DNA of 41,237 nt from a virus: IMG/VR virus record IMGVR_UViG_3300020469_004835, positions 1 through 41,237 of that record. One strand, written 5' to 3'. Positions 2,987 through 41,237 of the stretch are shown here, piece by piece. The notes beneath the pieces are model-generated. The model was given only the letters and a program-made list of their open reading frames with translations. It was not told where the DNA came from and did no database searches. Both the position numbers and the translations under genes were made by a program. Within the stretch, counting starts at the first letter, position 1. Each line of letters opens with the position of its first letter.

Positions 2987-3982
2987 ATGAAGAAAAAAGC
3001 TCTTATTACTGGCATCTCAGGTCAAGACGGAAGTTACTTGGCAGAGTTACTCTTAGAAAAAGATTACGAAGTTTATGGATTTATTAGGCGGCATTCTCTA
3101 GCTAGCACTCAAGAAACTAGGGTTGATCATCTAGTCAGCAAAGGTCTAGTTAAAACTGATTATGCTGATCTTTTAGATAATTCCTCTATAAATCGTTTGA
3201 TGGGTCTTATTCGACCAGATGAGATTTACAATCTTGCAGCTCAAAGCCACGTTAGAGTCAGCTTTGATGTTCCTCAATTTACTTTGCAAACAAATATGAT
3301 AGGAACTCTGAACATGCTTGAAGCATATCGTTTCTGTTGCCCAGAAGCTAAATTTTATCAAGCGAGTTCTTCTGAGATGTTCGGTAATGAGATCGATGAA
3401 GATGGGTTTCAAAGAGAAACTACTCAAATGAAGCCTGTTAGTCCTTATGGGTGTTCTAAGTTAGCTGCTCATTGTATCGTAAGAAATTATCGTAATTCTT
3501 ATAATTTGTTTGCTTCTAACGGCATTTTATTTAATCACGAGTCCCCTCGTAGGGGAGAAAACTTTGTTACCGCAAAAATAGCTAAAGCTGTAGCAGCAAT
3601 CCACTTGGGATTACAGGAGGATTTGGTTCTAGGAAATTTGGAATCTTATAGGGACTGGGGTCATTCTAAAGATTATGTAAAAGCAATGCATGCTATTTTG
3701 CAGCACCACGAACCAGAAGATTTTGTTATTTCTTCAATGCAGACTCATTCTGTTAGGGATTTTTGCGAGGAAGCATTTGGTTTTGTTGATCTAGATTACA
3801 AGGATTTTGTTAAGAGCGATCCGAAGTTTTATAGGCCAGAAGAGTTGAAAAAGCTAAAGGGCGACTCGTCTAGAGCTAGAAAAACTCTTAATTGGGAGCC
3901 AGAATTTGACTTTAAAGGCTTGGTTGCAGATATGGTTTCTTACTGGATTAATGAATTATCTGTTGACAACAATCAAAATTAG
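2987..3982 (+). CDS. gmd: GDP-mannose 4,6-dehydratase
   Basis: A 331-residue extended short-chain dehydrogenase that converts GDP-D-mannose to GDP-4-keto-6-deoxy-D-mannose, the branch point to GDP-fucose, GDP-rhamnose and GDP-perosamine. The NADP-binding motif GISGQDGSYLAE is at residues 9-20, the active-site segment ASSSEMFGN is present, and the catalytic YGCSK (YxxxK) follows. The substrate-binding stretch NHESPRRGENFVT is diagnostic for Gmd. Length is slightly under the usual 345-370. It has its own promoter immediately upstream. With the fucosyltransferase and DegT gene it forms a minimal deoxysugar pathway; the reductase or epimerase that would finish GDP-fucose is not seen here. Confidence 0.93.
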   Translation: MKKKALITGISGQDGSYLAELLLEKDYEVYGFIRRHSLASTQETRVDHLVSKGLVKTDYADLLDNSSINRLMGLIRPDEIYNLAAQSHVRVSFDVPQFTLQTNMIGTLNMLEAYRFCCPEAKFYQASSSEMFGNEIDEDGFQRETTQMKPVSPYGCSKLAAHCIVRNYRNSYNLFASNGILFNHESPRRGENFVTAKIAKAVAAIHLGLQEDLVLGNLESYRDWGHSKDYVKAMHAILQHHEPEDFVISSMQTHSVRDFCEEAFGFVDLDYKDFVKSDPKFYRPEELKKLKGDSSRARKTLNWEPEFDFKGLVADMVSYWINELSVDNNQN

Positions 3983-7732: not shown

Positions 7733-8778
7733 CCGATTACAAATCTGTTTTAGAAGATCTTGGTTATCGACTAAAAGATCATGGCTCTTATTGGAGAACT
7801 AGCGCTGTATATAGGTCTGGTGATAATTCTACAGCACTACAGATTTATAAAGATACTGGGGTTTGGAAAGATTATGTGGAAGACTCTATGTTTCTCCCCT
7901 TTGAAGCCTTACTTCAGAAAACTTTAAATACTAATGACAAAAGTATTTTAAGCTCTTACCTAAAGAGTAATAGTGTAAATATATATGAACGCTCTGCTCA
8001 AAAAAAACTTTTGAATGAAGAAAAAACATATCCAGATTCTTGCTTAAATCGCTTGCTACCCCATTATGACTTTTATTTGAACAGGGGTATATCAGAAGAC
8101 ACTTTGAAGAAGTTCAAGTGCGGATTGGCAATGTCTGGAAAAATGTATCAGCGAGTCATATTCCCCATTTGCCGCCCTGACGGGAGGATACATGGCTTTT
8201 CGGGCCGAAAGGTAACGGATGACCCTAGACCTAAATGGTTGCACAATGGGAGGTGTTCTGATTGGTTTTATCCATATTATACAATTGATAAAGTTCGAAC
8301 TGCTATTGAAGAAAGTCGCAGTGTTTATGTTGTAGAATCGATTGGAGATTGTATTTCATTATTTGATGCTGGAATCAAAAATGTTCTTGTTTCTTTCGGT
8401 CTTAATATTTCACCTAAGTTCATATCTAAGCTGCATGGCTTGCCCTTAGATAAAATTTTTATTGCATTTAATAATGATTTTAATTCAGGTTCTAACAGGG
8501 GATTTGAAGGTTCAATTAAGTCTATATTCAAGCTCTGCGATCAAATTGATTTTGATAAAGTATTTTTTTCTCCACCTCCAGAAAATGATTTCGGAGACAT
8601 GGATAAAGACCAAATAAACAAATATGTTGAATATTGTGCATCAATTAAGCATAATGAAACAATAGCCAACGTTATTGATTTTGCCAAAGAGATGAATAAA
8701 CGTGGGGTCAATAAAACATTTACTTCTAATTTACGGAAGTTCGAAAAAAAATACGACTTCCATTATGGAGAAATCTGA
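7729..8778 (+). CDS. DnaG-like primase with TOPRIM domain
   Basis: A 349-residue primase that would lay RNA primers for the polymerase. The N-terminal region has the shape of a DnaG zinc domain (YRSGDNSTALQIYKDTGVWKDY) but lacks the cysteines that hold zinc. The centre contains the DnaG core signature FPICRPDGRIHGFSGR, then a TOPRIM domain with the catalytic Glu in VYVVESIGDCISL and acidic residues in FIAFNNDFN. The expected DxD is here NND, so metal binding may differ. No DnaB-binding C-terminal domain of normal size is evident. It lies between the helicase and a RecB-like nuclease, with overlaps. Confidence 0.84.
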   Translation: MTDYKSVLEDLGYRLKDHGSYWRTSAVYRSGDNSTALQIYKDTGVWKDYVEDSMFLPFEALLQKTLNTNDKSILSSYLKSNSVNIYERSAQKKLLNEEKTYPDSCLNRLLPHYDFYLNRGISEDTLKKFKCGLAMSGKMYQRVIFPICRPDGRIHGFSGRKVTDDPRPKWLHNGRCSDWFYPYYTIDKVRTAIEESRSVYVVESIGDCISLFDAGIKNVLVSFGLNISPKFISKLHGLPLDKIFIAFNNDFNSGSNRGFEGSIKSIFKLCDQIDFDKVFFSPPPENDFGDMDKDQINKYVEYCASIKHNETIANVIDFAKEMNKRGVNKTFTSNLRKFEKKYDFHYGEI

Positions 8779-18108: not shown

Positions 18109-18909
18109 ATGAAAAGGGTATTAGTTACTGGTAGCGAAGGATTTATTGGCAAAAATCTCTGCCCTTATCTTGAGAAAAGAGGAATAGAGGTCGTTCCTTA
18201 CGATATTAAGTTTGGTGGTAGTTTGCCTCCTTTGAATGGTATTGATGCTGTCATTCATCTTGGAGCTAACTCTAGCACTACGGAGACTGATTTAAAAAAG
18301 ATTTTAAATGAGAATTTTATATTCTCTGGCACACTTTATCAATTATGTGCGAATATGGGCATCAAGTTTCAATATTCCAGTAGTGCTTCCGTCTATGGCG
18401 CAGCAGAAACGTTTGAAGAGGATCATTTCTGCACTCCACTAAACCCTTATGCTTACAGCAAATATATGTTTGACAACTGGCTTTTAAACGAAGATCATCC
18501 CTATCAAGGATTTCGCTATTTTAATGTATATGGCCCACATGAGGAACATAAAGGAGATCAGGCAAGTCCGATAACGAAATTCATTAAACAAATTCAAGAA
18601 GATGGCGAGATCAAAGTATTTAGGACAAAAGCAAGCAGAGACTTCGTGCATGTGGAAGATGTTTGTGAAGTTCATTATAGGATGCTTCATCATGATACTA
18701 ATGGGGTTTTTAATGTTGGGACTGGCAACTCTGTTTCTTTTAAAGAAATTGCAGATAAAATGGCAGAAAACTCTGGGGCAAAGGTCAAGCAGATAGCGAT
18801 GCCTACAAAACTTAAGGGCAAGTATCAAAAATTTACCCAAGCAGACATCACAAAGCTGACATCTGTGATTGGAGAAATGGATTGGAAACAAGTCTTAGAG
18901 TGTATATAA
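18109..18909 (+). CDS. ADP-glyceromanno-heptose 6-epimerase-like (HldD-like) protein
   Basis: A 266-residue extended SDR. GSEGFIGKNL supplies the GxxGxxG dinucleotide loop at residues 7-16, the catalytic pair is in PYAYSKYMFDNW (YxxxK), and NVYGPHEEHKGDQASP closely follows the HldD hallmark NVYGPxExHKGxMAS. HldD converts ADP-D-glycero to ADP-L-glycero-manno-heptose for LPS core. It is about 45 residues shorter than typical. Separate genes at 24245-25467 encode the kinase and nucleotidyltransferase that would make its substrate. Alternative: a related NDP-sugar epimerase. Confidence 0.75.
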   Translation: MKRVLVTGSEGFIGKNLCPYLEKRGIEVVPYDIKFGGSLPPLNGIDAVIHLGANSSTTETDLKKILNENFIFSGTLYQLCANMGIKFQYSSSASVYGAAETFEEDHFCTPLNPYAYSKYMFDNWLLNEDHPYQGFRYFNVYGPHEEHKGDQASPITKFIKQIQEDGEIKVFRTKASRDFVHVEDVCEVHYRMLHHDTNGVFNVGTGNSVSFKEIADKMAENSGAKVKQIAMPTKLKGKYQKFTQADITKLTSVIGEMDWKQVLECI

Positions 18910-18916: not shown

Positions 18917-19186
18917 ATGGTATCTCTAATTAAATCTGTATTGAAAAGCGTGGAGTTATACCTCAAGTTGAGAAATAAACTCGCATTCTCTGAAATTACA
19001 GAGAAACATAACAAAAGAAAATATGAACTTATCGAAGAAATTGAAAATCTACGTGATATTGGCGACAATGAGTCCAGTGATCGCGCTGACTTCTTGCGGG
19101 GGCAGCTCCTCACCGAAAACAAGCAGTTTAAACATATATCAGCCGTCTTCCTTGAATCTGAAGGCGGGTCAGCCGATTCAGACTGA
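18917..19186 (+). CDS. Small coiled-coil protein hosting the o-spanin gene
   Basis: An 89-residue, helical protein with a coiled-coil-like middle (KHNKRKYELIEEIENLRDIGD) and an N-terminal amphipathic rather than clearly membrane-spanning helix. The lipoprotein gene for a probable outer-membrane spanin starts inside it in another frame, which is the usual Rz/Rz1 arrangement, so this is the candidate inner-membrane partner, although the expected transmembrane helix is not obvious. It may instead be an unrelated lysis-region protein. It has its own promoter. Confidence 0.6.
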   Translation: MVSLIKSVLKSVELYLKLRNKLAFSEITEKHNKRKYELIEEIENLRDIGDNESSDRADFLRGQLLTENKQFKHISAVFLESEGGSADSD

Positions 19187-19274
19187 GGAAGGAGTTTACA
19201 CTCCCCAGACTGACGAAGTTTGGCATTCAGACGCTCGTTATAGGAAGTTAGAGCGCGAAGTTTACAATCAATAA
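19023..19274 (+). CDS. Spanin-like outer-membrane lipoprotein (Rz1-like)
   Basis: An 83-residue protein beginning inside the preceding gene in a different frame and ending 88 bases beyond it. It has a signal peptide: MNLSKKLKIYVIL, a hydrophobic core to about residue 22, and the lipobox LTSC with the lipidated cysteine at 25, followed by GGSSS. The mature part is proline-, serine- and threonine-rich, like o-spanins that bridge the envelope at lysis. A holin and an endolysin lie 1.7-2.1 kb downstream. The overlapping frames and lipobox are seen; spanin function is inferred. Confidence 0.74.
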   Translation: MNLSKKLKIYVILATMSPVIALTSCGGSSSPKTSSLNIYQPSSLNLKAGQPIQTEEGVYTPQTDEVWHSDARYRKLEREVYNQ

Positions 19275-20009
19275 TTAGCGCTTCCTTCTGAATAGAGGTA
19301 GTAAAGCTACAGTTAAAAATAGTAAAGAATTAGCTTCTGGCACTACTGGTAATGTAGTGCCATTACCTTGAACAAGAGAATTAGGAACAGCTTCATCAAA
19401 CACAAAATTGTCCATTCCGAAACAAAAACCTGAATTACCACACTCAGGGCAACTTGAATTACCAGTGTGAGTTGCTGATGCACCCCTATCAAAGATAACT
19501 ACTTTATCGACGTTATCAAAAGAGCTGGGTAAGAAAACATCTCTAGTGCTTGCTGCACCCCAATCTACGCTGGGTAAAGCGTATATCTCCGTAACAGGAG
19601 AACCATTTAAGTAACCTTGAATTCCAATATTCTCTTCATTTGTAGCTGGTTGCCCACCAACAGAAGTATTCGAAGTTATTTGAAAATACTGTAAATCAAA
19701 AGGGTTGTTGTTTTGAAGAGAGATCTCTATAGCAGAGATTGCAGTCCAATGACCGTGAATGACATCATTCCCCACATCATAATAATCACCTACAGTCTGA
19801 AAACTCCAATCTTCGGTGGGTGAAACATATTCAAGAATAACAGACTGTTCTTGGTAGCTAATGACCCCATAATTTTGAGAAGTTGTAGTTGTGATGATAG
19901 TGCCACCTGATTCTAAGTTTGCCGTCCCACCTGTAAAGGTGACGATAGCTGCTTTACAAAAACAGGATATAACAAATATTGGCAATAGCAGGGGCATTAA
20001 TTTTTTCAT
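19275..20009 (-). CDS. Secreted protein with PEP-CTERM-like sorting tail
   Basis: A 244-residue exported protein. The N-terminus (MKKLMPLLLPIFVISCF, then CKAA) is a signal peptide. The body is Ser/Thr/Asn/Gly-rich beta structure with a GFCFGMDNFVF stretch typical of verrucomicrobial PEP-CTERM proteins. The last 22 residues are the sorting signal: VPEA (residues 223-226), a hydrophobic helix, and RRKR at the very end. Exosortase normally cleaves such tails at the host envelope; the usual Pro-Glu-Pro is here Pro-Glu-Ala. It stands on the minus strand, convergent with the lipoprotein gene, and its start overlaps the stop of a small membrane protein. Probably host-derived cargo for surface display. 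Confidence 0.78.
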   Translation of the reverse strand: MKKLMPLLLPIFVISCFCKAAIVTFTGGTANLESGGTIITTTTSQNYGVISYQEQSVILEYVSPTEDWSFQTVGDYYDVGNDVIHGHWTAISAIEISLQNNNPFDLQYFQITSNTSVGGQPATNEENIGIQGYLNGSPVTEIYALPSVDWGAASTRDVFLPSSFDNVDKVVIFDRGASATHTGNSSCPECGNSGFCFGMDNFVFDEAVPNSLVQGNGTTLPVVPEANSLLFLTVALLPLFRRKR

Positions 20010-20200
20010 TTTTTAAGTTTTTTAAGTAAGTAATCTTTAAATTTTGACAATCTTCCAGTGATTTTGTTAAGTAATCTACTTAACTTACTATCTTCTGGCG
20101 CGAAAAACGCAAGTGTCCCAACTATACCCATTACCGCGATTGTAAATTCAGGCAGCGAGGACATATAGGGTGCTAAAATTTTGTCGAATATTTCTTCCAT
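20006..20200 (-). CDS. Small single-span membrane protein
   Basis: A 64-residue protein with one hydrophobic segment (FTIAVMGIVGTLAFFA, about residues 19-34) and a lysine-rich helical tail. Its layout resembles the 66-residue protein at 23440-23640 and other small holin-like phage proteins. It overlaps the PEP-CTERM gene by four bases. A pinholin-like or membrane-anchor role is possible but unproven. Confidence 0.55.
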   Translation of the reverse strand: MEEIFDKILAPYMSSLPEFTIAVMGIVGTLAFFAPEDSKLSRLLNKITGRLSKFKDYLLKKLKK

Positions 20201-20202
20201 GA

Positions 20203-20952
20203 TTAATAATCAGATAGTTTCGGGGGATTGGTAGGAGGCTCATTCGAATTAATTTTGAGATCCTCCCTCACTTTAAGTAATTCCCTGTCTCTCTTCATTC
20301 TCTCCTCTTCAGCAAGCTCATTCTTTTCTTCGCTCTCCTCAGAAGAGGGATTAGACCCTTTAATGTCACCATACCCTTTTTCAGCGTATTCTCTAATGCC
20401 TTCGAAGGTTGAAATACCTAAAACCGACTCAGTAAACCTGTTGAATTTGGAAAATGCCCCATATTCTTGCTCTGTAACAACAGCTATCTCTATGCCTTCC
20501 GTTTTCGCTGCTTTGGCTTGGAAATAGGTTCCGCTTGCAATCGTCATTACCCCAGCGGTTCCCATTGCTGCCATTTTTTGAGTTGTAGCAGCTATAACTC
20601 CAACCCCTACCGTGACATTTTTTGATTTTTTCGTTAGCCTCTTATTATTTTTATCTGTTTCTATAAGCTTTTGCAAGTTAGAATCATCTGAAGATTCACC
20701 TTCGACTTCTGGGTTTTCTTCCTGCTCTTCAGGGGGTGATTCAACTTCTTCTTCCACCTGCTCTACTATTTCAATCCCACACTCCTCGCAAACACACTTT
20801 TGATCATCTAAATGCTTGACCCTTTGCAGTAACGTCCAAGCCGTCTCTCGCGCATGCCTATCAAGATCGGAGATTATGTCGCTATCATCTGGATTACAGT
20901 ATTTCAGAGCGAAAGCCTCGGCTTCTTCAAGATTTTTATCTCTTTCCTCCAT
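20203..20952 (-). CDS. Acidic protein of unknown function with hydrophobic centre
   Basis: A 249-residue protein of no recognised family. It has an N-terminal helical part, a CVCEEC motif near residue 53 that might bind metal, a long Glu-rich low-complexity linker (about 60-95), a glycine- and alanine-rich hydrophobic region (VTVGVGVIAATT... to ASGTYF, about 112-143), and a charged C-terminal helix. It is the first gene of the minus-strand trio ending in the PEP-CTERM protein and is divergent from the holin gene, sharing a palindromic promoter region with it. It could be a virion or envelope-associated protein. Confidence 0.55.
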   Translation of the reverse strand: MEERDKNLEEAEAFALKYCNPDDSDIISDLDRHARETAWTLLQRVKHLDDQKCVCEECGIEIVEQVEEEVESPPEEQEENPEVEGESSDDSNLQKLIETDKNNKRLTKKSKNVTVGVGVIAATTQKMAAMGTAGVMTIASGTYFQAKAAKTEGIEIAVVTEQEYGAFSKFNRFTESVLGISTFEGIREYAEKGYGDIKGSNPSSEESEEKNELAEEERMKRDRELLKVREDLKINSNEPPTNPPKLSDY

Positions 20953-20961
20953 TTGATTTTA

Positions 20962-20989
20962 GTTACACTTAAATCAAATTTTGTGTAAT
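20962..20989. promoter_or_regulatory. Palindromic divergent promoter region
   Basis: GTTACAC (20962-20968) and GTGTAAT (20983-20989) are inverted copies around an AT-rich centre. On the minus strand GTGTAAC is nine bases from the ATG at 20952; on the plus strand GTGTAAT is nine bases from the ATG at 20999. Each -10-like box is the complement of what would be the other promoter's -35. Confidence 0.5.
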
Positions 20990-20998
20990 ATACCTTAC

Positions 20999-21313
20999 AT
21001 GGATTTTAAAGTTATAATAAGGGAGTTTTTGGACGGAGGTTGGATTATCCCTGTTATTGGGGCAGCGGGTATGATCGTTCGCATGCTTACTTTTAAGGGT
21101 AGGGTTTCCTTAAAATGCTTTTTTAGGAATGTTTTGGCTGCTGCTATATTGTCAGGCATTTTGTGGTTCGTGTTGCATGATGCGCCTATAAGTGATTTTA
21201 TTAAGGCGATTTCTTATGGCGTAGTTGGAGTGGTAGCCCCAGAGATTACAAATGGAATCATTGCCTTGGCCAAAAAATTTGAAAGGAATCCTGATAAATT
21301 TTTAAAAAAATAG
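20999..21313 (+). CDS. Holin-like membrane protein
   Basis: A 104-residue protein with two or three hydrophobic segments: GGWIIPVIGAAGMIVRML (about 13-30), NVLAAAILSGILWFVL (about 44-59) and ISYGVVGVVAPEITNGIIAL (about 71-90). A charged C-terminus ends in KKK. Size and topology fit holins that permeabilise the inner membrane so the endolysin can act. It lies 60 bases before the amidase gene. The ATG at 20999 is chosen over an in-frame TTG at 20981, because the TTG lies inside the promoter box. Confidence 0.7.
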   Translation: MDFKVIIREFLDGGWIIPVIGAAGMIVRMLTFKGRVSLKCFFRNVLAAAILSGILWFVLHDAPISDFIKAISYGVVGVVAPEITNGIIALAKKFERNPDKFLKK

Positions 21314-21364: not shown

Positions 21365-21373
21365 TAAGTGATT

Positions 21374-22006
21374 ATGAAGTTTTCTGGTAAAGATCGTATC
21401 GTTAAACAAGTTCAAAAAAAACTTGGCCTTAAAGCTGACGGAATTGATGGCCCCGCTACATGGAAAATGATTTGGGAGAATCTGATTCATGATGATAAAG
21501 GTGAGCCAGAAAAGCCAGAGCCTGAAGCTCAAGAACTTAAAGATGATTACCCTGAAGTTTATAAAGCTTCTCCAAATCAATCTGGAGCCATTAAACCTAA
21601 GTATGTGGTTCTGCATCATAGCAGTGGAAGTCATGATGGGACTCGTTCATGGATTTTAAATGCTGCATCAAAGGTTAGTTATCACTATCTTATTGCGCCT
21701 GATGGATCTCGCACACAATTTGTTTATGACAAAAAAAGGGCTTGGCATGCAGGAAGATCTTCTTGGAAAGGTGTAAGCGGTCTAAATGGCCATAGTGTCG
21801 GCATTTCTTTTTATGGAGATACTAATAAACGCACACCAAGTGCGGTTGAAATTGATTCTGCTGCCAAGAAATGCAAATACCTTATGGATAAATTTGACCT
21901 TGGAATAGAAAACATTCTAACGCACAAAATGATTGCGCCGAATAGAAAGAATGACCCTTCAGATGAAACCTACCAAATGGTCATCAAACGCATAAAAGAG
22001 CTTTAA
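21374..22006 (+). CDS. N-acetylmuramoyl-L-alanine amidase endolysin
   Basis: A 210-residue endolysin that would cut the bond between muramic acid and the stem peptide. Residues 1-36 form a peptidoglycan-binding domain (VQKKLGLKADGIDGPATWKM), then a Pro/Glu-rich linker (about 45-65), then an Amidase_2 domain: VVLHHSSG holds the first zinc histidine, YHYLIAPDG and AWHAGRSSW follow, and THKMIAPNRKNDP carries the second histidine and the Asp-Pro of the active site. No signal peptide, so export depends on the holin. The ATG at 21374 is favoured over the GTG two codons earlier. Confidence 0.93.
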   Translation: MKFSGKDRIVKQVQKKLGLKADGIDGPATWKMIWENLIHDDKGEPEKPEPEAQELKDDYPEVYKASPNQSGAIKPKYVVLHHSSGSHDGTRSWILNAASKVSYHYLIAPDGSRTQFVYDKKRAWHAGRSSWKGVSGLNGHSVGISFYGDTNKRTPSAVEIDSAAKKCKYLMDKFDLGIENILTHKMIAPNRKNDPSDETYQMVIKRIKEL

Positions 22007-23439: not shown

Positions 23440-23640
23440 ATGGATATTATTGAGATTATTACATCGTTCGTTGAAGATAAAGTTTGGTTTAACTGGGCTT
23501 GTGCTGTTATTGCTGCGGCTAGTGCATTTGCTGCTGCTTCCCCAACCCCAAAACAGGGGACTTGGCTGTCGAAAGCTTACAAAGTCGTAGATTTTCTCAG
23601 CATTAATTTTGGTAAAGCCAAAGATAAAGGCGATAAGTAA
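23440..23640 (+). CDS. Small membrane protein, holin-like phage family
   Basis: A 66-residue protein with one alanine-rich hydrophobic span (WACAVIAAASAFAAASP, about residues 19-35) followed by TPKQGTWLSKAYKVVDFLSI and a FGKAKDK end. The TPxP-GT-KxYKxxDxLxxNxGKAK pattern is common among short phage proteins, often near lysis genes. It may assist lysis or anchor a complex. It ends about 165 bases before a strong terminator. Confidence 0.65.
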   Translation: MDIIEIITSFVEDKVWFNWACAVIAAASAFAAASPTPKQGTWLSKAYKVVDFLSINFGKAKDKGDK

Positions 23641-23873: not shown

Positions 23874-24248
23874 ATGAGTATGGAGCCAATCAAAGGTATT
23901 GTTGAGACTTATGCAAAGGGCTGGGGTAAAGAGATCTGGATTACGAACAACGAACTTTATTGCGGGAAAATTCTAAAGTTTAATAAAGGATCGGAGTTCT
24001 CCATGCACTACCACATCAAGAAGGAAGAAACTTGGGCCGTAATAAAAGGCAAACTTCTTTTAAAATATTATGATTTGAGTAATGCCGAGGAAAAAGAAAT
24101 GATCTTGCGGGTTGGAGAGACAATTCATTTAAAGCCTTGTATACCTCATAAACTTATTGCTATGGAAGAATCTTCTGTATTCGAAGTAAGCACTCAACAT
24201 TTTGAAGAAGACTCTTACAGGGTTCAAAAGGGAGATTCGCAGAAATGA
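23874..24248 (+). CDS. Cupin-domain protein, mannose-6-phosphate isomerase type II-like
   Basis: A 124-residue single cupin. The metal site is in EFSMHYHIKKEETWAV (two His and a Glu), then GKLLLKYYD, VGETIHLKPCIPHKL (last His) complete the two conserved cupin motifs. Small proteins like this accompany sugar-nucleotide genes and resemble the cupin part of type II mannose-6-phosphate isomerase/GDP-mannose pyrophosphorylase. It leads the heptose-type operon and overlaps the kinase gene by four bases. Alternative start at 23880. Exact reaction unknown; sugar phosphate isomerisation is an inference. Confidence 0.72.
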   Translation: MSMEPIKGIVETYAKGWGKEIWITNNELYCGKILKFNKGSEFSMHYHIKKEETWAVIKGKLLLKYYDLSNAEEKEMILRVGETIHLKPCIPHKLIAMEESSVFEVSTQHFEEDSYRVQKGDSQK

Positions 24249-24994
24249 AAAAAATCCTTGTTATTGGAGAATCTTGCTTAGACATTTTTACTTATGGGTC
24301 TGCTGATAGATTATGCCCAGAAGCTCCAGTCCCTGTTTTTAAGCAGGAGGACTCAGTTACCTTTATGGGTATGGCCTTTAACGTCCATAGAAATGTCATT
24401 GCTTGTCTTGATGATTTAGGTAAAAAGGCAGAGGTAGAGATTAAAAGCAATAAAAGCACTGGAGCAAAGGTTAGATATATTGACTCTAATTCTAATCAAA
24501 TGTTTTTGCGCGTTGATTCAGATGAGTATAAAGAGATTGATGAATTAAAGTTGCATGAAGCAAACGTGTGGTCTTATGATGCTGTAATCGTTTCTGATTA
24601 CAATAAGGGATATCTGACAGACAAAGATTTAAAATATATTGCAGATAATGCTCAAATGTCTTTTTTAGACACTAAAAAGAAATATAATTCAAAGTGGGCT
24701 AATTCATTTGATCTGATTAAAATCAACGAAAAGGAATACAAAGAGAATGGATTTAAAGGGATGGGTATGGATAACCTTATTGTTACTTTAGGGGGTGGAG
24801 GATGTAGGTTCAAAGGAAAGAAATACCCTTTGAAATCTGTCGCTCAAGTGAGAGATGTGAGTGGTGCTGGAGACACTTTCCTTGCTGCTTTTGCGACTAA
24901 CTATTTATTCAATCAAGATATAGATTCAGCGATTGACTACGCTCAGACTTGCTGTAGCATTGTCGTCAGTAAAGCTGGAACAGCAACGATATGA
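24245..24994 (+). CDS. HldE N-domain-like PfkB sugar kinase (heptose 7-phosphate kinase-like)
   Basis: A 249-residue ribokinase-fold enzyme. GESCLDIFTYGSADRLCPEA followed by PVPVF matches the N-terminus of HldE/RfaE kinases (ERxxPEAPVPV), and DVSGAGDTFLAAFATNYL is the PfkB ATP-binding and catalytic signature with the base Asp. HldE-type kinases are about 310-330 residues, so this is compact. The expected reaction is phosphorylation of D-glycero-manno-heptose 7-phosphate at C1. The next gene is the matching nucleotidyltransferase, which in many bacteria is fused to this kinase. Confidence 0.82.
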   Translation: MKKILVIGESCLDIFTYGSADRLCPEAPVPVFKQEDSVTFMGMAFNVHRNVIACLDDLGKKAEVEIKSNKSTGAKVRYIDSNSNQMFLRVDSDEYKEIDELKLHEANVWSYDAVIVSDYNKGYLTDKDLKYIADNAQMSFLDTKKKYNSKWANSFDLIKINEKEYKENGFKGMGMDNLIVTLGGGGCRFKGKKYPLKSVAQVRDVSGAGDTFLAAFATNYLFNQDIDSAIDYAQTCCSIVVSKAGTATI

Positions 24995-25467
24995 ATCATC
25001 CTAAAATAGCTAATATAACTAAGATTATGCACCATTTTTCGACGGGAACGAAAAATATGGCCTTTACTAATGGTTGCTTTGATTTGTTTCACGCAGGTCA
25101 TGCACACCTTCTGAAATCAATTAAGGAAGATTTGCCCGATGATTACGAATTAGTTGTCGGCGTGAATGGAGATAAAAGCGTTAAGCAAAATAAGGGTTCA
25201 GAAAGACCTATTATCAGCCAAGAACAGAGAGCCTTTCTTGTAGCTTGTCATGAGTGCGTTGACCATGTGTTTGTGTTTAATGACGCAACAGTTTCTGGCT
25301 ACCTGAGACACCTTAAGCCCTCTCGTTGGTATAAAGGTGGAGATTATAGCATTGCGACATTACATCCGTCTGAGAAGGCATCCTGTGGACAAACAGAGGT
25401 ATATTTCATTCCATTCTCTGAGGATATAAGTGCCACAAAAATCATAACAAAAATTAAAGAACTATGA
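24991..25467 (+). CDS. HldE C-domain-like sugar nucleotidyltransferase
   Basis: A 158-residue cytidylyltransferase-fold enzyme. FTNGCFDLFHAGHAHLL holds the HxGH nucleotide-binding motif, GVNGDKSVKQNKGSERPI fits the sugar-phosphate region of RfaE2, WYKGGDYS matches KGGDY, and EDISATKIITKI matches the C-terminal ISTTKI-type motif. It should make ADP-heptose from heptose 1-phosphate. It overlaps the kinase and the HAD gene by four bases each, reproducing as three adjacent genes a split HldE plus phosphatase arrangement. Confidence 0.82.
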   Translation: MNHPKIANITKIMHHFSTGTKNMAFTNGCFDLFHAGHAHLLKSIKEDLPDDYELVVGVNGDKSVKQNKGSERPIISQEQRAFLVACHECVDHVFVFNDATVSGYLRHLKPSRWYKGGDYSIATLHPSEKASCGQTEVYFIPFSEDISATKIITKIKEL

Positions 25468-38408: not shown

Positions 38409-38494
38409 GGCTCTGTGGCGCAATTGGTAGACGCTGCGGATTTAAAATCCGTTGATCCTAGATCGTGAGGGTTCGATCCCCTCCAGAGCTACCA
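38409..38494 (+). tRNA. tRNA-Leu (anticodon TAA), CCA encoded
   Basis: Acceptor GGCTCTG pairs with CAGAGCT (G-T at the end), anticodon stem GCGGA/TCCGT with loop TTTAAAA gives TAA at positions 34-36, a long class II variable arm follows, T arm GAGGG-TTCGATC-CCCTC, discriminator A, then CCA. Matches the AT-rich codon use of the phage (TTA). Confidence 0.93.
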
Positions 38495-38499
38495 CTCAA

Positions 38500-38574
38500 G
38501 ACCCGTTCGTCTAATGGTTAGGACTCCAGATTTTCATTCTGGCAATAGGGGTTCGATCCCCCTACGGGTTGCCA
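38500..38574 (+). tRNA. tRNA-Glu (anticodon TTC), CCA encoded
   Basis: Acceptor GACCCGT pairs with ACGGGTT, anticodon stem CCAGA/TCTGG with loop TTTTCAT gives TTC, T arm AGGGG-TTCGATC-CCCCT, discriminator G, then CCA. Six bases (38494 to 38500) from the tRNA-Leu, so probably one transcript. Confidence 0.94.
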
Positions 38575-38998: not shown

Positions 38999-39586
38999 AT
39001 GATTAGTGATAGAGATAAATTTATATTCGTGCATATACCTAAATGTGGAGGCACTTCAATAGAGAGATTTATTTTATCTAACTATGGAGTGAGTAATGAT
39101 TGGACGAGTAAATATCCTCTGTCGGCGCTGCCAATGAAAATTAAATCTGAATTTAGTATTGGCTTTCGGCATAAGCAACACATGTCATTAAATGATTTCC
39201 CCTTAGAAAAGCAAGAAGAATACTTTTCATTTGCTTTCGTCAGGAACCCTTGGGATAGGATTATGTCTTCTTATTTTTATTATAAGGGGCTTGGATGTAA
39301 GTTTACCTTTAAATCTTTTTTAGAATCTAATAAATCTCGTATTCACTGTAAACCGCAATTTTGTTTTCTTAATAAGAATATAGATTTTATAGGCAGGTTT
39401 GAGAACTTGCAAGAAGATTTTAATTTAATTTGCCAAAAGCTAGGCTTTGAGTCCAAGAAATTACCACATGAAAATAAGACAAATCATGAACATTATACTG
39501 AGTGGTATACTGATGAAAATAAAAATCTAGTTACAGATAGGTATTTTGACGATATTGAGGCTTTCGATTATGAATTCGGATATTAA
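38999..39586 (+). CDS. Sulfotransferase, copy 1
   Basis: A 195-residue PAPS-dependent sulfotransferase (sulfotransfer_2-like). The phosphosulfate loop is FVHIPKCGGTSIERF (residues 10-24) and the 3'-phosphate site is FAFVRNPWDRIMSSYFY. The C-terminal half with FIGRFENLQEDFN fits the family. Likely substrate is a glycan or cell-surface component. It is followed two bases later by a paralogue. PAPS would have to come from the host, because no PAPS synthase is seen here. Confidence 0.85.
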   Translation: MISDRDKFIFVHIPKCGGTSIERFILSNYGVSNDWTSKYPLSALPMKIKSEFSIGFRHKQHMSLNDFPLEKQEEYFSFAFVRNPWDRIMSSYFYYKGLGCKFTFKSFLESNKSRIHCKPQFCFLNKNIDFIGRFENLQEDFNLICQKLGFESKKLPHENKTNHEHYTEWYTDENKNLVTDRYFDDIEAFDYEFGY

Positions 39587-39588
39587 CT

Positions 39589-40167
39589 ATGATTAATTAC
39601 GAGCATAAATTTATATTTGCAAGAGTCGCTAAAACAGCATCAACAAGCATTCTTGATAAGCTACCTAAATGCGATAGACTATGTGAAGAATGGGACTACG
39701 ATTGGAACCATGTTCCTTTATGGCATCGGAAACAAATTTTAAATGAAAATATTTTTAATACATTCTTTAAGTTCGCGTTCGTAAGAAATCCATTTGATAG
39801 AGCGGTTTCAATAGTAGAATATTGGAATAAGCGTAGTAAAAAAAAGGGTGGCCCTACTTTTGATTTTATAGATTTTTTTACGGGTGGTATTAGTAGTGAA
39901 TTTATTATAAAAGACAGATTTTTTTCAAAATATGGATCACAGTATGATTTCACGAAAGGTTGTAATTTCATAGGCAAAGTAGAAAACTTACAAGAAGACT
40001 TTAATATTATCTGTGATAAAATTAGAATTACAAGACAGGAACTTCCGCACAAAAACAAATCCAAACATAAACACTATACCGAATATTACAATGACGAAGC
40101 AAAGCGGGTGATCGCAGAGCTATATGCGCGAGACATTGAGGCTTTTAATTATAAATTCGGAGAATAA
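39589..40167 (+). CDS. Sulfotransferase, copy 2
   Basis: A 192-residue paralogue of the preceding protein with FIFARVAKTASTSILDKL as PAPS loop and FKFAFVRNPFDRAVSIVEYW as 3'-phosphate site; the C-terminal FIGKVENLQEDFNIICDK, LPHKNKSKHKHYTEYY and DIEAFNYKFGE parts are clearly homologous to copy 1. The PAPS loop differs (VAKTAST versus IPKCGGT), hinting at another acceptor or altered activity. Tandem duplication followed by divergence. Confidence 0.83.
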   Translation: MINYEHKFIFARVAKTASTSILDKLPKCDRLCEEWDYDWNHVPLWHRKQILNENIFNTFFKFAFVRNPFDRAVSIVEYWNKRSKKKGGPTFDFIDFFTGGISSEFIIKDRFFSKYGSQYDFTKGCNFIGKVENLQEDFNIICDKIRITRQELPHKNKSKHKHYTEYYNDEAKRVIAELYARDIEAFNYKFGE

Positions 40168-40172
40168 AAAAT

Positions 40173-40248
40173 GCGCTTGTAGCTCAGTGGTTAGAGCAGG
40201 GGTCTCATAAACCCTTGGCCGTGAGTTCAAATCTCACCGAGCGCACCA
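40173..40248 (+). tRNA. tRNA-Met or tRNA-Ile2 (anticodon CAT), CCA encoded
   Basis: Acceptor GCGCTTG pairs with CGAGCGC, D arm GCTC...GAGC, anticodon stem GGGGT/ACCCT with loop CTCATAA gives CAT, T arm GTGAG-TTCAAAT-CTCAC, discriminator A, then CCA. A normal 1-72 G-C pair argues against an initiator. Could be elongator Met or lysidine-modified Ile. Confidence 0.94.
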
Positions 40249-40289: not shown

Positions 40290-41237
40290 ATGAAACCTAT
40301 CACTCTTCACTGCTCCAAACAAATTGATGACCTTTTAGATGAGTCTATGACTATGGAGGCTAACGGTAAAGTGTTCGCCTCTCAAGATCATGCAAGCTCC
40401 TCTTATGTCAGGAATCCCAATCTATGGTGTGGAGGCTTAGATATTACCTGTTTATCACCTTGGAATAGTAGTGGTGATCATAAGAAAGCGGGGACACTAG
40501 TGACCCCAAGGCACATTATAGGTGCAGCACACTACGAGTATTCTGTAGGGACAGTGGTTAGGTTTGTAGAGAAAAACGGTTCAGTGCATGAACGAACTGT
40601 AATAGGGAAAGCTCGACATCCCGAATGTAGACGTTACTTTCCAGACTTAACAATTTATACTTTGGACAGTGACCTCCCCTCTACGATAAAGCCTTGCTCT
40701 GTAATGCCTAGTAATTACAGTGACTATTTAGATACTTTCAGCAAGATACCTTGCCTTGGCCTTGATCAAGAGGAGAAGGCTCTCATCATAGATTGGCGTT
40801 CTGGAGGTAGGATGCAGACACCCACAGATCCGAAAAGACTTATTTTCCATGAGAATAAAATCAGTGGCGACAGTGGCAACCCTGCATTTTTAGTATTCAA
40901 AGGTGAGCCTGTTCTTATAACTGTTTGGACATTTGGTGGTGCGGGATCTGGGACTGCTATAGCGGATCATATTTCAGATATTAACTCCATGATTGTGACC
41001 GCTGATACACGGGCAAACGTATCGACAAATTATACAATTACTGAAGCGGATTTTTCAAAGTATATAGTCTTCGATGCTAAAAAACTTTTGGCTCAATTCT
41101 TCGCTGCACTTCGTAAGTTACGACCTCGTTGGTTTAAGAAAAGTCCCGAAACCAGTGCGGAGACCAGTGCGGAGACCAGTGCGGAGACCAGCGCGGAAAC
41201 CAGCGCGGAAACCAGCGCGGAGACCAGCGCGGAGACC
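40290..41237 (+). CDS. Trypsin-like serine protease with ETSA repeat tail, 3' end outside window
   Basis: The open frame of 316 codons runs off the window. A chymotrypsin-fold protease is indicated by the catalytic His in TPRHIIGAAHY, Asp in FPDLTIYTLDSDLP, and Ser in SGDSGNPAFLVF (GDSGNP), in proper order and spacing. It lacks a signal peptide. After about residue 285 the chain changes to a tetrapeptide repeat, Glu-Thr-Ser-Ala, repeated at least seven times. The enzyme could process virion or host proteins; the repeat may be a spacer to another domain. Missing from any longer annotation because it is cut by the window edge. Confidence 0.78.
   Translation, partial: MKPITLHCSKQIDDLLDESMTMEANGKVFASQDHASSSYVRNPNLWCGGLDITCLSPWNSSGDHKKAGTLVTPRHIIGAAHYEYSVGTVVRFVEKNGSVHERTVIGKARHPECRRYFPDLTIYTLDSDLPSTIKPCSVMPSNYSDYLDTFSKIPCLGLDQEEKALIIDWRSGGRMQTPTDPKRLIFHENKISGDSGNPAFLVFKGEPVLITVWTFGGAGSGTAIADHISDINSMIVTADTRANVSTNYTITEADFSKYIVFDAKKLLAQFFAALRKLRPRWFKKSPETSAETSAETSAETSAETSAETSAETSAET
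41148..41237 (+). repeat. 12-bp in-frame tandem repeat encoding ETSA
   Basis: Seven and a half copies of a 12-base unit, GA(A/G)-ACC-AG(T/C)-GCG, from 41148 to the window end. The third-position variants are clustered (agt then agc; gag, gaa, gag), as expected from local slippage with recent expansion. Confidence 0.95.

Follow-up and report, generated by a model that had tools for sequence, protein, structure and literature searches.

The gene at positions 19275–20009 (minus strand) of a 41,237-base virus contig (the whole of which is referred to here as the window) encodes a secreted protein of 244 amino acids with a PEP-CTERM-like tail. It is the third gene of an operon conserved in many phages, in which the tail remains constant behind four unrelated protein bodies; the anatomy of the protein, the conservation of the operon and the constancy of the Pro-Glu (PE) tail over these bodies are shown by the data below. 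Exosortase sorting, known from bacteria and, in a related form, from archaea, ties proteins to the cell surface and to exopolysaccharide. The reading we favour, with moderate confidence, is that the third gene is the cargo of a phage surface-display operon that makes use of the host exosortase, with export, processing, location and the role of the other two operon proteins being inferred.

The N-terminus of the protein is Lys-rich and hydrophobic, forming a signal peptide (residues 1–20; 19950–20009, minus strand) with a signal-peptidase-like site and predicted cleavage near CFCKA↓A; AxA-type sites (SAFA, SAYA, SAEA) are found at the same position in its relatives. The body (residues 21–223; 19341–19949, minus strand), of which Ser, Thr and Asn together make up 27.6%, includes the sequence GFCFGMDNFVF. 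The FCFGMD motif therein (residues 195–200; 19410–19427, minus strand) is the most conserved C-terminal motif of the body: C196-F-G-M-D200 is invariant across an alignment of 11 viral sequences (A1), and G198 and D200 across one of 45 viral and bacterial sequences (A4). The tail (residues 224–244; 19278–19340, minus strand), a putative exosortase sorting signal, reads VVPEANSLLFLTVALLPLFRRKR; the PE pair occupies residues 224–225, the third residue is Ala, and a hydrophobic stretch is followed by RRKR. An earlier note, based on the letters of the window only, had described the signal peptide, the Ser/Thr/Asn-rich body with GFCFGMDNFVF, the tail and a neighbourhood of lysis genes. Its coordinates held exactly, the minus strand being missing from it, the anatomy held by sequence, and so did the neighbourhood, in which the endolysin is supported by a PHROG match and the holin-like and spanin-like open reading frames (ORFs) by architecture only.

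AlphaFold2 predicted a beta-sandwich for the body, with a mean pLDDT of 86.6 for the whole model (about 91–97 across the greater part of the beta-sandwich), together with a helix at the C-terminus (residues 228–243). Fold comparison with Foldseek gave weak matches of the body to CBM29, CBM32 and fucolectin-type domains (TM 0.25–0.39 by query, up to 0.5 by target; a match was counted as convincing at about 0.5 or more), while the search against viral structures yielded no informative match for the fold. The likeness to carbohydrate-binding modules rests on this fold comparison alone, and glycan binding is a possibility hinted at by a predicted model, no more. The dN/dS of the body is ∼0.10, which indicates that the gene is under purifying selection. 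A promoter and terminator scan gave no clear signal relative to shuffled sequences.

The operon is transcribed from the minus strand in the order p249, TM64, PEP-CTERM-like protein. The first gene, p249 (20203–20952, minus strand), codes for an N-terminal domain, an acidic linker, one TM-like segment (IGxAGxMxIxSxxYFQ) and an acidic C-terminus. TM64 (20006–20200, minus strand) codes for a 64-aa protein with a single TM segment and a basic C-terminus; the last 4 bp of TM64 are shared with the start of the PEP-CTERM gene. On one side, the PEP-CTERM gene converges with that for a small o-spanin-like lipoprotein (19023–19274, plus strand; lipobox LTSC; assigned by sequence and architecture only), the stop codons of the two genes abutting at 19274/19275; in contig L103 the corresponding stop codons overlap by four bases (8245–8248). 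The lipoprotein gene is overlapped by a candidate spanin-like partner ORF (18917–19186, plus strand; architecture only), and in about 30 contigs the spanin-like ORF of this nested pair (18917–19274) keeps its place next to the operon. On the other side, separated from p249 by 28 bp and divergent from it, lies a gene for a holin-like membrane protein (20981–21313, plus strand; assigned by architecture, with only a weak PHROG match) that is kept next to p249, followed by an N-acetylmuramoyl-L-alanine amidase endolysin (21368–22006, plus strand; phrog_1794, E 4.6e-22). The small TM protein p66 (23440–23640, plus strand; phrog_9685) adjoins the operon in other phage lineages; that TM64 is a paralogue of p66 was ruled out (hhalign probability 0.6%).

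A 67-kb IMG/VR contig (G002, from locus L020) is ∼97% identical to the window over the genes they share and extends into genes for a terminase large subunit, a tape-measure protein and ribonucleotide reductase; its terminase and tape-measure genes indicate that the window belongs to a tailed phage. The window also carries three surface-glycan genes (34–816, 2987–3982 and 18109–18909), namely a family 11 glycosyltransferase (Pfam E 1.2e-29), a GDP-mannose 4,6-dehydratase (E 8e-116) and an NAD-dependent epimerase (E 3e-41), whose presence agrees with the possibility that the phage alters surface sugars. As separate observations made by eye, an HldE-like sugar kinase/nucleotidyltransferase pair and two sulfotransferase-like genes (24245–25467 and 38999–40167) hint at glycan modification, and a trypsin-like serine protease (40290–41237; GAAHYEY, GDSGNP) has a C-terminal SAETSAET repeat that runs off the contig end.

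The definition of PEP-CTERM used here is that of PMC12188702, which cites Haft et al. 2006 and 2012. The window protein matched the PEP-CTERM model NF038120 (E 8.8e-5, 22.5 bits) without reaching its curated cut-off of 80 bits; it had no match in Pfam, PF07589 included, and its own tail did not match TIGR02595. Among 11 relatives, ten matched NF038120, four TIGR02595 and four PF07589 (at E up to 1); the NF038120 matches, in 10 of the 11 A1 members, had E-values down to 1.1e-8 and scores of 16–35 bits. The TIGR02595 cut-off (16 bits) was passed by the operon relatives L022 (23.8 bits; tail VPEPATVGLIGVAAGTLMLTRKRRGL) and L028 (17.6 bits; tail IPEPSTSALMLAFGSFMYAAIRRRRVT). NF038120, the (QFxxD) PEP-CTERM family, is the best curated family for the body of the window protein (body 1), and the scores below 80 bits indicate that the latter forms a family of its own, related to NF038120.

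Two scans of viral contigs with the body detected 43 loci with 35–98% identity, and with independent protein searches using p249 and TM64 the number of distinct IMG/VR contigs rose to about 89 (a hand count of contig names). All viral contigs of sufficient length had the order p249, TM64, third gene; where only p249 or only TM64 was seen, a contig end cut off the other gene. No matches for the body, p249, or the L022 or L107 proteins were found in cultured phage genomes. A rule was defined that required a signal peptide and a PE no more than 36 aa from the C-terminus, followed by a hydrophobic stretch and then by basic residues. All 64 distinct third-gene proteins obeyed it. The control set was made up of the remaining phage ORFs of these contigs that were 80 aa or longer (1082 in number), and its sole passing member (L060) turned out to be a third gene severed from TM64, so that the control count is 0 of 1081. 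Many of the 64 proteins are closely related, and the more telling number is that of the unrelated bodies. Blast comparison sorted these into four mutually dissimilar groups: body 1, that of the window; body 2 (276 aa, 28 distinct proteins); body 3 (L140 and L141–L143); and body 4 (L184, sequence NGGFETGDLTGW). Homology of body 2 to the window's body was ruled out, there being no significant blast match, and the model of body 2 was of low confidence (pLDDT 52.7) and gave no usable fold. All 28 body 2 proteins keep I-P-E unchanged, and the tail residues after it drift.

These observations bear on a rival explanation, namely that the tail is an ordinary C-terminal anchor in the inner membrane and that its PEP-CTERM likeness is a bacterial inheritance whose function was lost in phages. 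The second proline of the signal is indeed missing in 55 of the 64 distinct phage proteins, most of which read PE-A/L/I/V/S, and the window tail misses TIGR02595. Nevertheless, PE is invariant over four unrelated bodies, which implies that each body either retained its tail or gained one anew; if the signal had decayed, PE would not be expected to persist next to hydrophobic residues that drift; and such tails are absent from the control ORFs. We therefore consider an ordinary anchor unlikely.

The contigs with the operon sort into several sets by the non-operon genes they share. Contig L024 is T7-like, with a head-tail adaptor (phrog_449, E 3e-184) whose gene directly follows the operon; G007 encodes T4-like baseplate proteins; and the terminase of L030 is of the same type as the window's. 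These different backgrounds indicate that the operon is either transferred among phage types or retained in several of them. In L030 (1657–2394) and L031, p249 and TM64 are separated by a gene that resembles, by eye, one for a virion protein. It could be argued from this gene, and from the adaptor gene next to the operon in L024, that the body decorates the particle, being made in the host envelope, or that the operon consists of structural genes. A signal peptide together with a membrane tail would be unusual for virion proteins, however, and in most contigs the operon lies away from structural genes, making this explanation very unlikely.

A role in lysis is also unlikely, if somewhat less so. 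According to this explanation, the three operon proteins assist lysis or set its timing, working in the envelope alongside the neighbouring holin, endolysin and spanins, and the tail is merely an anchor or a route to the outer membrane. In its favour, the operon has endolysin, holin-like or spanin-like neighbours in no fewer than three arrangements, and small membrane proteins make up two of its three products. On the other hand, the window transcribes the operon in the direction opposite to its lysis genes; homologues of those lysis genes were not detected beside the operon in the distant phages L022–L031; the invariant PE would be needless for a pure anchor; and the PEP-CTERM-tailed bacterial homologues of the body are unrelated to phage lysis.

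These homologues came from a genome scan with the body that returned 25 loci, all bacterial except for L032 and L033, distributed over Pseudomonadota, desulfobacterial groups, Cyanobacteria, Planctomycetota, Verrucomicrobiota and others. Most end in standard PEP-CTERM tails, e.g. VPEPSTILLLGAGLAGLAVWRKRKAA, and neither p249 nor TM64 was found at the bacterial loci. An exosortase was present in all five of the tested bacterial genomes that carry a body homologue. In contrast, none was found in 15 viral records, so a phage-encoded exosortase was discarded for the records inspected. Among 289 Verrucomicrobiota genomes the body was present in only one. The two exceptions, L032 and L033, are phage contigs that share phage genes with the window and sit in a metagenome-assembled genome (MAG) bin labelled Flavobacteriaceae. 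A Flavobacteriaceae host is unsupported, the bin having no exosortase match and the contigs being phage; the placement is probably the result of contamination during binning.

The existence of bacterial homologues, and of two contigs in a bacterial bin, might also suggest that host genes were mis-assembled into viral contigs. This can be all but excluded: phage genes flank the operon in many of the ∼89 contigs, the GC content of the operon (38.8%) matches that of the window (37.6%), p249 and TM64 do not occur at the bacterial loci, and the two binned contigs carry the same phage genes.

The host is likely to belong to Verrucomicrobiota, on the strength of a tRNA-Glu(TTC) gene (38500–38574, plus strand) that is identical over 75 of 75 bases to that of a Verrucomicrobiota genome (G261) and 94–97% identical to those of other Verrucomicrobiota. 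The best control matches were 86% (299 Pseudomonadota genomes), 85% (199 Planctomycetota) and 91% over 67 bases (198 Bacteroidota), which supports an earlier guess at this phylum, made without database searches. Three phage tRNA genes (Leu, Glu and Met) are present in all, at 38409–38574 and 40173–40248. No CRISPR spacer or isolated virus–host pair was found, and the true host is unproven. All seven of the best tRNA-matched Verrucomicrobiota genomes contain an exosortase, and a profile of the phage tails gave 15–70 matches in each of five of these seven. Sampled host tails (VPEPSxALLGGLGLLALLRRRR) closely resemble phage tails such as IPESSSALLGGLGMLVLFRRRR. Their third residue differs: it is Pro in 66 of 68 sampled tails from the tRNA-matched genomes as against 9 of 64 phage proteins. 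Given this disparity, it is conceivable that the matched genomes are not the real hosts, or that the phage tails are poor substrates. The difference between PE-x and PEP is unexplained, and it could mean either that the real host was not sampled and has a less strict enzyme, or that processing is altered.

Some distant operons have a fourth gene. In L022/L023 (8677–9846), L028 (7072–8238) and L029, and L140–L143 (3316–4479 in L140, 4651–5838 in L141), the PEP-CTERM gene is directly followed by one for a secreted outer-membrane beta-barrel of about 390 aa that ends in Phe. It resembles the BBP2 (PF10082) proteins of Verrucomicrobiota, with a YDDN-type motif in most members. Profile–profile comparison with host BBP2 proteins (hhalign) gave a probability of 92%, compared with 0.2% for a reversed control; the E-value rests on four phage sequences, and is suggestive only. 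Against the Pfam model, L141 scored 13.5 bits, under the gathering threshold of 23.7, and the other fourth genes had no match. In the window, no BBP2-like gene was found beside the operon.

The surface-display reading can be put as follows, all of its steps being inferred. The third protein would be exported by Sec and held in the inner membrane by its PE-TM-RRKR tail, with p249 and TM64, membrane proteins without a known function, as its partners. The host exosortase would recognize the tail, and the body would be passed outside the cell or into the exopolysaccharide layer. The likeliest benefit would be that a glycan-binding-like body alters the surface of the infected cell before lysis, by masking receptors, masking a phage-binding glycan or altering the exopolysaccharide. 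Swapping of the body would fit a component exposed to rapidly changing hosts or to rival phages. Surface display is the reading that we lean towards; its purpose is left open, and the earlier proposals that the protein blocks superinfection or changes aggregation are plausible without any direct evidence. A bolder reading, to which we give rather less than even credence, is that a dedicated cargo-swapping display operon hijacks the Verrucomicrobiota exosortase, with p249 and TM64 governing processing. If so, the change from PEP to PE-x would be functional, generating for instance slow or trapped substrates; these would retain the protein at the membrane or occupy the exosortase, and the cell surface would change as a result.

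That the protein is a PEP-CTERM-like exosortase substrate, as the earlier note had proposed, is supported by the NF038120 match, the TIGR02595 matches of its relatives, the homologues in exosortase-bearing bacteria and the dozens of related phages that carry it; processing is not shown, and the PE-x tail is the chief reservation. That note did not mention the operon of three genes, the exchange of bodies while the tail stays the same, or the contrast between the PE-x tails of phages and the PEP tails of hosts. A search of the open-licence literature, mostly of titles and abstracts, found no description of phage-encoded PEP-CTERM proteins. What is new is thus likely to be the occurrence of a known sorting signal within a phage-borne, cargo-swapping operon. 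If true, phages exploit the exosortase pathway, and do so in a phylum with few cultured phages. The operons would also offer natural experiments on what exosortases recognize (one tail with four bodies, and PEP versus PE-x tails), as well as specific candidate proteins through which phages may control the host surface.

With regard to known systems, phage surface proteins that act against superinfection, e.g. small lipoproteins, are similar in being envelope proteins that possibly change the host surface. Such proteins are known to use lipoprotein or inner-membrane anchoring; to our knowledge, none uses the exosortase pathway. The closest likeness is to the PEP-CTERM/exosortase (EpsH) system (TIGR02595 / PF07589 and PF09721), the proteins of which are reported to stabilize the link between exopolysaccharide and the bacterial cell surface (PMC12188702). 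Both cases have in common a Sec signal peptide, a divergent Ser/Thr/Asn-containing body, a C-terminal PE followed by a hydrophobic helix and an Arg/Lys cluster, and an association with exopolysaccharide genes. Unlike the known systems, the one described here is encoded by phages, has no exosortase of its own and always places the tailed protein third, behind p249 and TM64, with tails that mostly read PE-A/L/I/V/S rather than PEP.
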